Shown: in pieces, positions 7,453 to 17,031 of the stretch
Position numbering within the stretch: position 1 is the first letter of the stretch
Layout: the number at the start of each line of letters is the position of its first letter
Source: a virus
Length of the DNA: 22,668 nucleotides
Virus record (IMG/VR): IMGVR_UViG_3300003322_000037
Span: 1 to 22,668 of that record
Reading direction: 5' to 3' (one strand)
The notes under the pieces: generated by a model
The model's input: the letters and a program-made list of their open reading frames with translations, nothing else
The model's database searches: none
Told to the model about the DNA's origin: nothing
Program-made: the position numbers and the translations under genes

Positions 7453-8337
7453 ATGGGCATGCTTTCCGACTACACGCAGAACTTCCTGATCGACGCCCTG
7501 TACCGCGGCGGCGCACTGAACTCCGGCGGCACCGTCAACAGCACCGCCACGGTCAAGGGTGTCTGGACCGCCTCCACCGCCTACGCTCTGGGCGATACCG
7601 TCGTCCCGCATGCCAACATGACCGGCGCCGGCGGTAAGTTCCTACGCTGCACGACGGCGGGCACCAGCGGCGCGACCAACACCCTGGCCGTGCCCGCGGT
7701 CGGCTCGACCCTGACGGACAACACCGTCACCTGGACCGCAGTCTCGGGCGTTCCCTGCGTCTCGTCTCGCTACATCGCGCTGCTGACCTGCACCAAGGGC
7801 ACGCGCACGAACTCGACGGCCTACGCGCTGAACGACACGATCGTCCTGACGGCCAACGACTCGAAGATCCACTACTACAAGTGCACGACGGCCGGCACGA
7901 CCGCCGCCTCGCAGTCGACGCTGTACCCGGGCGCCGCGAACGAAGCGATCACGGACGGCACGGCGGTCTTCACTGAGCAGAACGCCGGCCTGGACAGCAA
8001 CAGCGCGATCCTGGTCGAGGCCAGCGGCGCCGGCTACGCGCGCGTCAACCTCGCGGCCAGTCTGGCGAACTGGGCCGGCACGCAGTCGGCTGCCTCGACG
8101 ACCGTGTCCACCGGCACTGGCGGCACGACCTCGAACAACTCGGCGATCACATTCGGCACGCCAACGGCCAGTTGGCAGCCGGCCGCGGGCGTGATCTGGG
8201 GCTGGGCCGAGTTCGATCAGCTCACCGGCGGCAACCTGCTGGGCTGGGCGCCGCTGACGACGGTGCAGACGGTCCTGAACGGCCAAGCGGCGCCGAGCTT
8301 CGCCATCAGCGCTCTGACCGACACGCTCGGCAACTGA
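7453..8337 (+). CDS. Tail fiber protein with two carbohydrate-binding-like repeats
   Basis: This 294-residue protein has the ends of a known small phage tail-fiber family. The N-terminus MLSDYTQNFLIDALYRGG is the usual opening. The C-terminal half has GYARVNLAASLANWAG (195-210), ITFGTPTASW and GWAEFDQLTGGNLLGWAPLT. Spliced into this frame are two related modules, at about 38-96 and 117-175. Each has the pattern 'STAYALxDTxV...CTTAGTxxA...TDxTxxxT', like the aromatic-rich carbohydrate-binding modules common in phage adhesins. The likely role is host-surface binding. The start is the ATG at 7453, 6 bases after GGAG. An in-frame TTG at 7441 lies upstream of that ribosome site and is unlikely. 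Placement between tail completion and tail tube is unusual. Confidence 0.78.
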   Translation: MGMLSDYTQNFLIDALYRGGALNSGGTVNSTATVKGVWTASTAYALGDTVVPHANMTGAGGKFLRCTTAGTSGATNTLAVPAVGSTLTDNTVTWTAVSGVPCVSSRYIALLTCTKGTRTNSTAYALNDTIVLTANDSKIHYYKCTTAGTTAASQSTLYPGAANEAITDGTAVFTEQNAGLDSNSAILVEASGAGYARVNLAASLANWAGTQSAASTTVSTGTGGTTSNNSAITFGTPTASWQPAAGVIWGWAEFDQLTGGNLLGWAPLTTVQTVLNGQAAPSFAISALTDTLGN

Positions 8338-8392: not shown

Positions 8393-10762
8393 ATGGCCAT
8401 CGTCCAGAAGTCATCGAATTCGCTCGCCTCGGTCGCGTCTTTCTCGCCTTCCCTGACTAGCGTCACGGCAGGCAATACGCTGGTCCTGCTGGTTGCGGCC
8501 AGCGCGTTCACCGACACGACGCCGACCGACTCGACGGGGCAGACCTGGTCGAAGGCGGTCTACCTCAACAACACCGGCTGCCAAGTCGCGGTCTACTACC
8601 TGCTGTCGGCGAACGCCGGCACGCACAATCTCACCGTTTCGCACGGCGGCAGCGCGTTCCCGTCATGGTCGCTGGTCGAGATTCCGACCTGCACGGCGGT
8701 TGATGTCGTCAGTACGCTGGCGAGCGCGACGAACACAGCGACGACGCTGTCTTCGAATGCGATCACGACGACGAACGCGAACGATGCGGTCTTCGTCTTG
8801 TTCGCAGCCGATGTTGCGACCGGTCATACGAACGCCGGTATCACAGATCCGCCGGGCACCTACTCGTCGGTCTTCGCGCAGCAGAACACGTCCTCGTTTG
8901 CTGGTTGCGAGTTTGGTTATCAGGAAGTCTCGTCGACCGGCTCGCAGTCGGCGACCTGGACTTTCACGGCGGACACGACCGGCTCGCTGTACGCGGCCGG
9001 CGCGGTTGCCTTCAAGCTCTCCGCAGCCGGCGGCGCGGCGCTGAGCGGCGCGGGCGTCGCGAAAGCGACCGGGTCCGGCTCCCTCACGCCGAAAGCGCAG
9101 TTCGCGGGAGCCGGTGTCGCGACGGCGCGCGGCTCTGCGACGCTGAGCGGCGGCGCGGTGCTATCTGGCGCCGGATCTGCGACTTCGGTCGGCTCCGGCG
9201 CGCTGACGGTCACGTTGAAGTTCGCCGGCGCCGGTGTCGCCTCGGCTTCTGGCTCCGGCACTCTGACTGTTCCGAGCAGTGGTCCGACGGTCACGCTCAA
9301 GCAGCGGTGGTACCAAGCGGCCGGCGTCGGCAATCCGCCGTCACTCGTGCAGGGTTCGAACCCGCTGACGGCGACCGCAGGAACGACGCTTCTGGTCGTC
9401 TGGTCCGCGGCTGACAACGGGGCGGTGAATCCGCCGACCGACACTGCCGGCACGTTCACGACGCCGACCGGCGGTCTGATCAACGTCAATGGCTCTACGC
9501 ATATCTGGCTGGGCATGGCCCACCAGGCGAACGCCGCGGGCGGGAGTCATACGCTTACGCCGCCGAACCTTGCGGTCGGCGGCGGCGGCGAGATCGGGAT
9601 CTGGGTGTTCGAGGTCACGGGGATGCCCGCGACCATCAACGTCCGTGGCATCTATAGCCAGAACCCGATCAGCACGTCCCAATCGTGGACGCTGACGACT
9701 GATTCGCTGCCGCAGCTCGGAGACATTGCCTTCACGGCGACGACCTACGAAAACACGGCGGCGTGGGTCAACGCGAACCTGACCGATCCGCCGACGGGCT
9801 GGACTTCGCTCGGCGCCATTCAGGACGCGACGAACTTCATCCCGACGGAGATCGCCTATCAGATCGTCCCGTCATCGGGTGCGATTTCGTCGAGCTGGTC
9901 GACCACGGATACCGGCGTCAGCGAGCACCTTGCGCTGACGATGGTGCTGGTGCCGTCCGGCATCGCGGGCGTTGCATTGGCTGGTGCCGGCGCGGCCTCG
10001 GCGACCGGCTCGGGTGCGCTGACCGCGAGGCCGCAGTTTGCGGGCGCCGGGAGCACGGCGGCGGTCGGCTTTGGCTCGCTGATGACGCAGGTTCCGCTCG
10101 CTGGCGCCGGCTCCGCGACAGCCTCGGGCGCCGCGGCCCTGACGACGCGCGTCGCGATGGCTGGGGCCGGCGCCGCTACGGCCGCAGGGTCCGCCGCGCT
10201 GACGGTGCAGGCAGCGCTTTCGGGGGCTGGCTTCGCCGGCGCGGCTGGATCCGCGACGCTGACCGGCGGCTCCGCGGGTGTGAGCCTGGCGGGCGGCGGC
10301 AGCGCTGCTGCGGCAGGTTCTGGCTCGCTGACGGCGGCCGCAGCCCTGAGCGGGGTCGGCACGGCATCGGCATCCGGCGCCGCGACGCTTTCGGGCGGCT
10401 CGGCTGGCGTGAGCTTCACCGGCGTAGGGTCTGCGTCGGCAACCGGCTCCGGTTCGCTGACCACGCGCGCGGCGTTCGCTGGCGGCGGCTTCTCGATCGC
10501 GACCGCGGCCGGGACGCTGACGATCGGCGGCGCGGGTGTCTCGTTCGTCGGCAATGGCTCGGCAACCTCGAGCGGCTCGGCATCGCTGACTGCCCGGCCG
10601 CAGTTCAGCGGTGCGGGCGTGGCGAAGGCGTCCGGCTCCGGCTATCTGTCGCTGGCGAGCCCCTTCCAGTCGGGCAATGAGGCGGTCTGGCTGGTGCCGG
10701 CCCGCAAGACAGTGGCGCAGGTTCCGGCGCGCCAGATCGTTGCGCAGGCGACGACGGACTAG
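8393..10762 (+). CDS. Large repeat adhesin: two duplicated beta-domains and fifteen Gly/Ala/Ser repeats
   Basis: This 789-residue protein is probably a phage surface adhesin, judged by position and composition. Two beta-rich domains, about 1-214 and 300-525, follow the same plan. Each has TAGNTLVLLV or TAGTTLLVVW near its start, then a 'PTDxxG' loop, a 'GxHxLT' strand, a 'DPPxxxxS' loop, and a closing strand before AFKLS or MVLVPSG. After each comes a run of 20-22-residue repeats of the form 'LxGAGxAxAxGSGxLTxxx': four at about 216-293 and eleven at 527-756. The tail (about 760-789) contains VPARKTVAQ and VPARQIVAQ. There is no signal peptide or membrane segment. Repeats of this length could form beta-solenoid rungs or a glycine-rich shaft, which is inference. 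The stop is nine bases before the next start. I know of no precise family name. Confidence 0.7.
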   Translation: MAIVQKSSNSLASVASFSPSLTSVTAGNTLVLLVAASAFTDTTPTDSTGQTWSKAVYLNNTGCQVAVYYLLSANAGTHNLTVSHGGSAFPSWSLVEIPTCTAVDVVSTLASATNTATTLSSNAITTTNANDAVFVLFAADVATGHTNAGITDPPGTYSSVFAQQNTSSFAGCEFGYQEVSSTGSQSATWTFTADTTGSLYAAGAVAFKLSAAGGAALSGAGVAKATGSGSLTPKAQFAGAGVATARGSATLSGGAVLSGAGSATSVGSGALTVTLKFAGAGVASASGSGTLTVPSSGPTVTLKQRWYQAAGVGNPPSLVQGSNPLTATAGTTLLVVWSAADNGAVNPPTDTAGTFTTPTGGLINVNGSTHIWLGMAHQANAAGGSHTLTPPNLAVGGGGEIGIWVFEVTGMPATINVRGIYSQNPISTSQSWTLTTDSLPQLGDIAFTATTYENTAAWVNANLTDPPTGWTSLGAIQDATNFIPTEIAYQIVPSSGAISSSWSTTDTGVSEHLALTMVLVPSGIAGVALAGAGAASATGSGALTARPQFAGAGSTAAVGFGSLMTQVPLAGAGSATASGAAALTTRVAMAGAGAATAAGSAALTVQAALSGAGFAGAAGSATLTGGSAGVSLAGGGSAAAAGSGSLTAAAALSGVGTASASGAATLSGGSAGVSFTGVGSASATGSGSLTTRAAFAGGGFSIATAAGTLTIGGAGVSFVGNGSATSSGSASLTARPQFSGAGVAKASGSGYLSLASPFQSGNEAVWLVPARKTVAQVPARQIVAQATTD
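9038..9271 (+). repeat. First repeat block in the adhesin: four 60-base-class units
   Basis: Four in-frame units of about 20 residues lie between the two beta-domains. They begin ALSGAGVAKATGSGSLT, QFAGAGVATARGSATLS, VLSGAGSATSVGSGALT and KFAGAGVASASGSGTLT. The DNA copies have diverged, so the block is old or under selection at protein level. Confidence 0.85.
9971..10660 (+). repeat. Second repeat block in the adhesin: eleven 60-66-base units
   Basis: Eleven in-frame units of 20-22 residues follow the second beta-domain. They run from ALAGAGAASATGSGALT to FSGAGVAKASGSGYLSL. The invariant core is G-A/G/V-G, then small residues at alternate positions, then a GSG-like turn and L-T. Longer units carry an extra GGSAG-type loop between repeats. 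The alternation of small residues suggests beta-strands separated by glycine turns. Confidence 0.85.
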
Positions 10763-10771
10763 GGAATCGAC

Positions 10772-11131
10772 ATGCAGATCCTGGAAAAGCGCAGCAGCGA
10801 CTCGCGGCGCTTCGATATTGACTGTTCGCTACTGCTGAATACCGGCGAGACCATCCAGAGCGTCGCGACGCCGACGGCTTCACCGGTGACGACGCCCGCG
10901 ATCACGTTCGGCACGCCGGTCGTGAACACGAGCCCGAACACCTATACGGATGCCTTCGGAAACTCGCGCACGGTCGCAACCGGCCAAGCCGTTCAGGTGC
11001 AGATCAGTGGCGGCGCGATTCCTTCGAACGCGCGCCTGCAGAAGTACACGCTGCGCTTCGTGCTGACGACCAACCAGAACCCCGCGATCGAGGCGACCGT
11101 CGTCCTCGATGTGACCGACACGCCGACCTAA
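10772..11131 (+). CDS. Fiber-tail adaptor-like protein
   Basis: This 119-residue protein has a single predicted beta-sandwich. It opens with a charged stretch EKRSSDSRRFDIDCSLLLNTGETI, close to the 'K.PxDxxDYxIDWSxxLxxGDTI' opening of phage fiber-tail adaptor proteins. The end, 'VQVQISGGAIPSNARLQKYTL' in shape followed by RFVLTTNQNPAIEATVVLDV, matches their closing strands ('xVxLSGGxxGxxYxVTxRxTT...RSFxLxV'). The middle is longer than usual and rich in Thr/Pro. It would link the adhesin to the virion, and its place just after the repeat adhesin supports this. An AGGGAA lies about 8 bases before the ATG. The assignment is by remembered pattern and is moderate. Confidence 0.55.
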   Translation: MQILEKRSSDSRRFDIDCSLLLNTGETIQSVATPTASPVTTPAITFGTPVVNTSPNTYTDAFGNSRTVATGQAVQVQISGGAIPSNARLQKYTLRFVLTTNQNPAIEATVVLDVTDTPT

Positions 11132-11200: not shown

Positions 11201-11848
11201 ATGACTTCCACCGCGATCAGCGCGCAGGGCACGATCCTGCAGATCGGCACCGGCTCGAGCGGCGCCAAGACGTTGACGGCTGCGGCCGTCGGCTACCCGA
11301 CGATCATCACGTCGGCCGCCCACGGTCTTGCCAACGGCGACATCGTGACGATGGCGAACTGGGCCGGTACCGGCGCGACGCTGCTGAACGGCCTTTCCTT
11401 CGTCGTCCAGGACGTGACGACGAATACGTTCATGGTCGAGGTCAACACGACCGGCCTGACGCTGACGACCGGCAGCACGCCGACCGCCACGCCGGTGGCC
11501 TGGACGCAGATCAACAACCTGAAGACCTTCACCGGCCTGGACGGTGAAGCGTCCGAGATCGACGTCACGAACCTCTCGAGCACGGCCAAGGAATACGTGC
11601 TGGGCCTGGTCGACAACGGCAAGTTCTCGATCGAAGTCGACCACGACAGCACCGACGCCGGCCAGGCCGCCTGCGTCGCCGCGCAGCAGTCCGGCGCCAA
11701 GAAGCAGTTCAAGTTGACGCTGCCGGACACGCACACCTTCACCTTCTACGCCTTCGTGAAGAAGGCCCCGCTGTCGGGCGGCGTCGACCAGGTCGTCAAG
11801 CGCGGCACGATTGACCTGCGCATCACCGGCGCCTACGTCTTCGTCTGA
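11201..11848 (+). CDS. Major tail tube protein with an inserted E1_FCCH-like domain
   Basis: This 215-residue protein should polymerise into the tail tube. The tube fold is recognisable at both ends: SAQGTILQIGTG (7-18), then INNLKTFTGLDGEASEIDVTNLSS (104-127), AKEYVLGLVDNGKFSIEVDHD, and a C-terminal RGTIDLRITGAYVFV. Between them, residues about 30-90 form an insert with the pattern TIITSAAHGLANGDIVTM...LLNGLSFVVQDVTTNTFMV, typical of the E1_FCCH-like beta-barrel seen in many virion proteins. The insert probably decorates the outside of the tube (inference). The ATG follows GGAG by 6 bases and a terminator-like hairpin lies just upstream, consistent with high expression. No frameshift or truncation is seen. 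Confidence 0.88.
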   Translation: MTSTAISAQGTILQIGTGSSGAKTLTAAAVGYPTIITSAAHGLANGDIVTMANWAGTGATLLNGLSFVVQDVTTNTFMVEVNTTGLTLTTGSTPTATPVAWTQINNLKTFTGLDGEASEIDVTNLSSTAKEYVLGLVDNGKFSIEVDHDSTDAGQAACVAAQQSGAKKQFKLTLPDTHTFTFYAFVKKAPLSGGVDQVVKRGTIDLRITGAYVFV

Positions 11849-16170: not shown

Positions 16171-17031
16171 ATGACGCAAATCCTCTTTGCCTCCTCGACG
16201 TCCCCGCTGCTGACGGATCTCGATGCGAATTTCACGGAGCTCTATGGAAGAACAACGCCGCTAACTTCGGCGACGAATGCGCTGGGTGTTGGCTCAACGC
16301 TCAATGCATGGAATTCCGGTCAGAAGGCAATTCAGGTCAATGGTGCGGCATGGAATGCAGGCGGAACGAATGACTTCAGCCTTTCCGTCAACGCTTACTT
16401 CAACACCTCTGGTGTATGGACCTATGTTGCCTCGTCGGCAGCAGTGAATCGATATACGCAGGCGGGCGGTCAGCACCAATGGCACTATGCTGCGGCCGGC
16501 ACTGCGGGGGCGGCAATCACCTGGACTCAGCAGATGACGCTCGACACAAGCGGCAACCTGATGGTAGGCGTCACCAGTGGGGCGGCGCAAGGCGTCACGA
16601 TTCAGCCGAACGGATCGTCTGCCAATGCTGCGAACATCAATATCTGCCACATCAGCGGAACTTCCACTGGTGCTGTTTACACGCAATACGTTTACAACAG
16701 CGCGGCGATTGGGTCCGTAACGCAAAGTGGCACGACAGCCGTTCTGTACAACACGACGTCGGACGAACGCCTGAAGAACAACATCGCCGATGCCGCGGAT
16801 GCCGGCGCGGTGCTGGACGCCGTGAAGGTGCGGCAATACGACTGGAAGGCCGATGGATCGCATCAGCGTTTCGGCTTCGTTGCGCAGGAGCTCATCACCG
16901 TCGTTCCGGAGGCGGTGTATTCGCCATCTGATCCTGACGACATGATGGCCGTCGACTATTCGAAGCTGGTCCCTCTGTTGGTGAAGGAGGTTCAATCCCT
17001 TCGCTCGCGGTTGGCCTCGCACGGACTCTGA
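16171..17031 (+). CDS. Tail fiber/spike with S74 self-cleaving chaperone domain
   Basis: This 286-residue protein ends in a Peptidase_S74 intramolecular chaperone domain. The mark is TSDERLKNNI (196-205), with Ser197 and Lys202 spaced as in the S74 catalytic dyad. FGFVAQELITVVPEAV (234-249) and a closing coiled-coil helix (265-286) follow. In this family the C-terminal part folds the trimer and is then released by cleavage just before the Ser. The N-terminal part (MTQILFASSTSPLLTDLDAN) looks like an attachment segment, and the middle is beta-rich with one short shaft repeat, 'DTSGNLMVGV'. Base composition is clearly lower in GC than the neighbours. It sits between two tip genes that are often adjacent, which suggests later insertion. 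The start lacks a strong ribosome site. Confidence 0.88.
   Translation: MTQILFASSTSPLLTDLDANFTELYGRTTPLTSATNALGVGSTLNAWNSGQKAIQVNGAAWNAGGTNDFSLSVNAYFNTSGVWTYVASSAAVNRYTQAGGQHQWHYAAAGTAGAAITWTQQMTLDTSGNLMVGVTSGAAQGVTIQPNGSSANAANINICHISGTSTGAVYTQYVYNSAAIGSVTQSGTTAVLYNTTSDERLKNNIADAADAGAVLDAVKVRQYDWKADGSHQRFGFVAQELITVVPEAVYSPSDPDDMMAVDYSKLVPLLVKEVQSLRSRLASHGL

Follow-up and report, generated by a model that had tools for sequence, protein, structure and literature searches.

Fiber I of the Ralstonia podophage GP4 (PDB 8JOU; Zheng et al. 2023, J Mol Biol 435:168258) reportedly comprises the gp80 fibre, a strand and the gp77 fiber-tail adaptor: a rope protein is reported to string gp80 dimers into a chain, which is seated on a Gp77 ring of 15-fold symmetry. 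8JOU_g has been described as a dimer and as a fibril joining an adhesin to the collar (PMC13243795). The same source describes an 'extra structural module' (gp34-gp35-gp36) in phage LSH1 and in Alishewanella phages Slicko01 and Slickus01, in which gp35 resembles 8JOU_g and gp36 is Ig-like; gp34-type proteins carry one, two or three domain copies between poorly predicted, beta-helix-like spacers, which the authors left unexplained (PMC13243795). Anabaena phage A-1(L), in the part of its description drawn on here, has five bead-chain neck fibres on a 15-fold neck ring, with genes gp80-gp81-gp82 (PMC10966104). A literature search for bead-chain neck fibres with tandem repeats found none.

The stretch of DNA analysed here (the window, 22,668 bases) is an entire IMG/VR record and probably a genome fragment. 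Its morphogenesis genes, which encode large terminase, portal, capsid, connector, tail terminator, tail tube and tape measure, mark it as coming from a tailed phage of the lambda/HK97-like type. Between the tail terminator and the tail tube gene lies a trio of genes, whose middle member encodes the protein of interest, P0001:

6988-7374, plus strand: tail terminator-like gene (phrog_78/347, E 3e-5)
7453-8337, plus strand: P0008, Gp80-type (bead) protein (PF23140), with a Gp80-like N-terminus, a two-domain insert and a Gp80 C-terminal core
8393-10762, plus strand: P0001, 789 amino acids
10772-11131, plus strand: Gp77-type fiber-tail adaptor, 119 amino acids (PF23148)
11201-11848, plus strand: major tail (tube) protein, lambda-like (PF16460; phrog_584, E 3e-25)

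By analogy with GP4, P0001 is probably the strand (or 'rope') of a fiber-I-like appendage that projects from the virion like beads on a string. This reading is preferred because a Gp80-type gene lies upstream and a Gp77-type gene downstream, both scoring above curated cut-offs, and because the trio and its repeat period recur in unrelated phages. P0008, encoded directly upstream of P0001, matches PF23140 (Gp80, 'Podophage GP4 fiber I protein') over residues 191-293 (E 6.1e-13, 49.7 bits, cut-off 27), and its N-terminal and C-terminal stretches match PDB 8jou_a (E 0.0017), a chain found in ten copies in 8jou. The start of P0008 was set by its homologue (MGMLSD) in L034, the locus of the only close relative. 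The adaptor gene begins 10 bases past P0001, and its product matches PF23148 (Gp77, 'Podophage GP4 fiber-tail adaptor') at 31.1 bits against a cut-off of 27; a closer Gp77 relative matches an 8jou chain present in 3 copies. In the cultured Salmonella phage SP-016 (terminase 65% identical), the major tail gene directly follows the terminator, so the trio is an accessory insert. The insert within P0008 consists of a tandem pair of related domains, each about 75 residues long (their score is 110, and shuffled sequences reach at most 49); the sequence resembles a small carbohydrate-binding module. Elsewhere among the tail genes of the window, the gene at 16171-17031 ends in a Peptidase_S74 (chaperone of endosialidase) domain, which suggests a self-processing fibre. 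At another locus (L035:1860-3248), an open reading frame has, by eye, a glycoside hydrolase-like start and a tail terminator-like end; it is directly followed by a tail tube gene that shares 57% identity with its counterpart in the window.

The locus resembles that of GP4 in that a Gp80 family gene and a Gp77 family gene lie on either side of one whose product has a period of about 20 residues, the period being read in the GP4 relatives BcepIL02 and BcepMigl. It differs in several respects: the phage of the window belongs to the long-tailed lambda/HK97-like type, P0001 is far longer (789 residues against 246-285), P0008 carries an insert, and P0001 has two globular domains, one of them mid-strand. 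The module is thus best read as one of the known GP4 fiber-I kind, and what is new is the second globular domain set within the strand. The original prediction, that no named family has this whole plan, therefore holds for P0001 itself, which is unnamed, but not for its setting, a known Gp80-rope-Gp77 fiber I module; the proposed role on the virion surface is supported by this gene context. The LSH1 module is likewise a three-gene unit with a Gp80-like member and with variable numbers of domain copies between beta-helix-like spacers, although the gp34 domain is a lyase-like beta helix; by analogy, it is possible that a 20-residue strand repeat lies behind the poor predictions for the LSH1 spacers. 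Slickus01 encodes a hypothetical protein of 2313 residues (L121:7380-14321) with a 20-residue period at residues ~1400-2150 only; it is a candidate gp34 homologue, and its neighbours have no match to the Gp77 or Gp80 profiles. A-1(L), likened by description only, also encodes a bead-chain fibre in three genes; its beads are gp81 trimers, and no repeat strand is mentioned in the portion of the description used (PMC10966104).

P0001 itself follows a simple plan, in which D1 is succeeded by four repeats, D2, eleven repeats and a short C-terminal tail:

8393-9022, plus strand: D1, N-terminal beta-sandwich domain (residues ~1-210), homologous to D2 and to L034, with an AF2 model and viral fold matches
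9041-9280, plus strand: repeat block 1 (residues 217-296), four 20-residue units starting at 217-277
9275-9964, plus strand: D2, second beta-sandwich domain, inside the repeat shaft (residues ~295-524), homologous to D1 and missing from L034
9977-10663, plus strand: repeat block 2 (residues 529-757), eleven units, each 20 or 23 residues long, starting at 529-738
10664-10762, plus strand: C-terminal tail (32 residues) and stop, with two PAR-x-x-V copies (AVWLVPARKTVAQVPARQIVAQATTD); putative adaptor anchor

The 15 repeat units are accompanied by a lag-20 autocorrelation of z=7.5 over the whole of P0001 and z=8.0 in block 2, while the remaining proteins of the window reach at most 2.8 over lags 18-24. 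Further along block 2, units of 20 and 23 residues alternate, the longer form adding G-G-x-A-G-V-S, and a super-period of 43 residues is found (z=9.4); a 43-residue peak is also present in L034. At the DNA level, the best pairs of units are about 65-77% alike, and owing to this divergence Tandem Repeats Finder missed the array. The AF2 model of the repeats has a strand every 10 residues (pLDDT 57.6), and a search of PDB folds with this low-confidence model gave only matches with E>1, the best of them mostly beta-helical. The beta-solenoid suggested in the original prediction and an extended strand are both conceivable shapes for such repeats.

Across an alignment of 201 columns, D1 and D2 share 28% identity (E 2e-14), and their local score of 141 exceeds the maximum of 81 among 500 shuffles; the motifs TAGNTL/TAGTTL, PTDSTG/PTDTAG and DPPGTYSS/DPPTGWTS occur in the same order in both. 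The AF2 model of D1, made from just 3 sequences, is a beta sandwich (pLDDT 76.8, pTM 0.80). It has 75 viral fold matches at E<=0.001 (TM 0.52-0.78), many of them annotated as minor tail protein, and no global match among PDB folds; a PRD1-like coat fold from the PDB was ruled out, with a TM of about 0.25 spread across gapped alignments. In sequence searches, P0001 has no match in Pfam, PHROGs, NCBIfam or PDB sequences, and its parts give chance-level matches only. The anatomy anticipated by the original prediction is confirmed: two similar domains with one motif order, predicted to be beta structures, are each followed by a repeat block, with four units and then eleven. A lack of similarity between the domains, which would have spoken against the prediction, did not emerge. 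The domain length of about 215 residues given there roughly fits D1, while D2 is closer to 230.

Comparison with L034, whose tail tube protein is 92% identical to that of the window, bears on the origin of this plan. The L034 strand protein has 505 residues, with a single D domain, about 12 units and a tail resembling that of P0001, so that both strand length and domain number are variable, and the expectation of a length-variable repeat shaft is upheld. It had further been proposed that a domain-plus-repeat module was duplicated and that block 2 then expanded. As a recent event, this is not supported: D1 shares 62% identity with the one domain of L034, against 28% for D2, which is therefore not a recent copy of D1, and the units of block 1 are no more alike among themselves than they are to those of block 2. 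Judged from these identities, the pairing of D1 and D2 would predate the split between the window and L034, or else D2 would have been acquired; gain or loss of D2 with adjacent units explains the two-domain and one-domain forms.

Further relatives were sought at several levels. No relatives of P0001 or its domains were found by tblastn in 50,697 phage records. Genome contigs scanned with the domain alignment gave none, and the tail tube gave three loci, all without the cassette. A domain profile run on 300 genomes gave two weak matches, of which L061 is broken by stops; L060 was rejected as a shadow frame of a transporter gene. A D-like fold joined to tandem repeats does occur in Gordonia phage GodonK, where gp96 (L087:6806-7804), a minor tail protein, is encoded two genes from a Gp77 relative; the fold match (TM 0.63) is to a 332-residue GodonK protein that was equated with gp96 by length. 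In gp96, unlike P0001, repeats of 12/24 residues come before the domain, and comparison of the D-domain profile with gp96 by hhalign gave no support.

The trio is a recurrent arrangement. Searching about 700 bacterial genomes with PF23148, and phage records with one Gp77 relative, returned many Gp77 cassettes, along with some Gp77 matches that have no large-protein partner. Gp80 is Pfam-confirmed in a cassette with a large protein in L077, L079, DSL-LC06, BcepMigl, BcepIL02, Itty13, Faith1 and Aegeus, and the hosts of the trio include podophages (BcepIL02, BcepMigl and Itty13), mycobacteriophages (Faith1 and Aegeus) and prophages, L077 and L079 among them. Four of these trios are:

BcepIL02, gp55-56-57: all three annotated as virion-associated
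BcepMigl, gp56-57-59: the large protein and Gp77 are separated by a pectin-lyase-like protein
Faith1, gp22-23-24: order Gp77, Gp80, large protein
Aegeus: order Gp77, Gp80, large protein

A period of 20 to 23 residues is present in the large protein of nearly every cassette examined, with low values in controls. The lag-20 z is 7.8 for BcepIL02 gp56 and 4.0 for BcepMigl gp57, the members nearest to GP4, and from these two we infer that a period of about 20 residues marks the GP4 rope; it is 10.6, 7.7 and 9.7 for the strand proteins of prophages L077, L078 and L079, and 6.6 and 4.3 for the large proteins of Aegeus and Faith1. The three prophage proteins resemble P0001 in having an N-terminal domain, about 13-17 twenty-residue units and a C-terminal tail, followed by a Gp77 gene, and they differ in that their N-terminal domains are unrelated to D1 and no domain is set mid-strand. 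Their repeats are similar to those of P0001 at z 8-13 over shuffles, whereas similarity to the BcepIL02 strand is at shuffle level (z 1.3), for which reason the period common to P0001 and the podophage ropes may be convergent. The N-terminal parts of the large proteins differ between cassettes, which is what one would expect if a shared type of strand carried exchangeable tips.

Many of the cassette strand proteins have tandem Arg-x-x-x-hydrophobic units at their C-terminal end; this feature was derived in the present analysis and is not an established defining one. A rope-tail profile was built from ten tails, leaving out the mycobacteriophage proteins, and used to rank 1955 real and shuffled tails. 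Faith1 gp24 and Aegeus gp25 ranked 1st and 2nd, the protein of Atu_ph08, which directly precedes a Gp77 gene, 4th, and Shagrat 7th. This ranking supports, at the level of sequence, what may be a common anchor among strand proteins, and it speaks independently for the trio being a single system. Arginine spacing in the tails, put to a simple test, performed no better than background. The tail of P0001, partly conserved in L034, is not recognised by the profile (rank 1061 of 1955, and 490 for L034), even with two more tails added (ranks 434 and 243); since the profile fails on both proteins, only position and the two PAR-x-x-V copies point to an anchor at this end of P0001.

As the strand of a fiber-I-like appendage, P0001 would be anchored close to the head-tail junction, where the Gp77-type adaptor (10772-11131) would grip its C-terminal end, and its 20-residue repeats would form an extended strand of variable length. 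Along these repeats, the Gp80-type subunits (P0008) would be ranged as beads, as in GP4. D1 would form the distal tip and D2 would sit within the length of the strand, both of them candidate receptor- or surface-binding domains. The whole would be placed near the neck or tail of the virion, with D1 and D2 presumably binding the host.

Some of the same observations could be accommodated by a stand-alone host-binding tail adhesin, in line with the original prediction, with D1 and D2 binding the host and the repeats serving as a mere stalk with no beads. The paired beta sandwiches do resemble domains seen in numerous phage 'minor tail proteins', and a relative with one domain is known (L034), but Gp80-type and Gp77-type genes are constant companions in unrelated phages, and we consider such an adhesin unlikely. 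We also think it improbable that the appendage is a fibre or decoration of the capsid, in which P0008 would sit on the head and P0001 project from it, instead of belonging to the neck or tail. In favour of the head are the match of the P0008 insert to PHROG 20658 ('head decoration'), which aligns to the protein in two stretches, and the label 'head protein' given to Gp80-type proteins in Faith1 and Stenotrophomonas phages; the Pfam name of Gp77, fiber-tail adaptor, argues otherwise, as does the location of the cassette between the tail terminator and tail tube genes, away from the head genes. Gene position is weak evidence here, because a relative whose capsid protein shows 68% identity has a different surface cassette right behind its capsid gene (L003:11632-15766). 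By eye, one product of that cassette is esterase-like and another, an fn3 protein, has a D-domain-like N-terminus.

The repeats might, finally, lack any structural role, having drifted as G/A/S/T-rich low-complexity sequence through slippage in high-GC DNA. Their composition is extreme, with G+A making up about half, and their model is of low confidence; nevertheless, the units retain period and pattern despite divergence of their DNA, about 12 units are retained at the protein level in L034, and an equal period occurs with other repeat sequences in unrelated phages (Aegeus and BcepIL02). Drift of this kind is accordingly very hard to credit, and a strand of the GP4 fiber-I kind remains the preferred reading of P0001.

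A more tentative idea is that the number of repeats serves as a ruler, two units seating one Gp80-type dimer, with gain and loss of units setting fibre length, bead number and the position of D2, in one system that spans podophages, siphophages and mycobacteriophages. The super-period of 43 residues would suit one dimer per two units. Large repetitive proteins called 'hypothetical' or 'minor tail' and left unnamed by profiles are common in phages, and once those with a 20-residue period are linked to Gp80 and Gp77, they acquire a structural role that can be tested, with the prediction that repeat number sets fibre length and adhesin position. In three small genomes of 2.0-2.5 Mb (G343, G581 and G642; loci L101-L114), there are three to six Gp77 matches each, several of them within single open reading frames of 1253-1494 residues.
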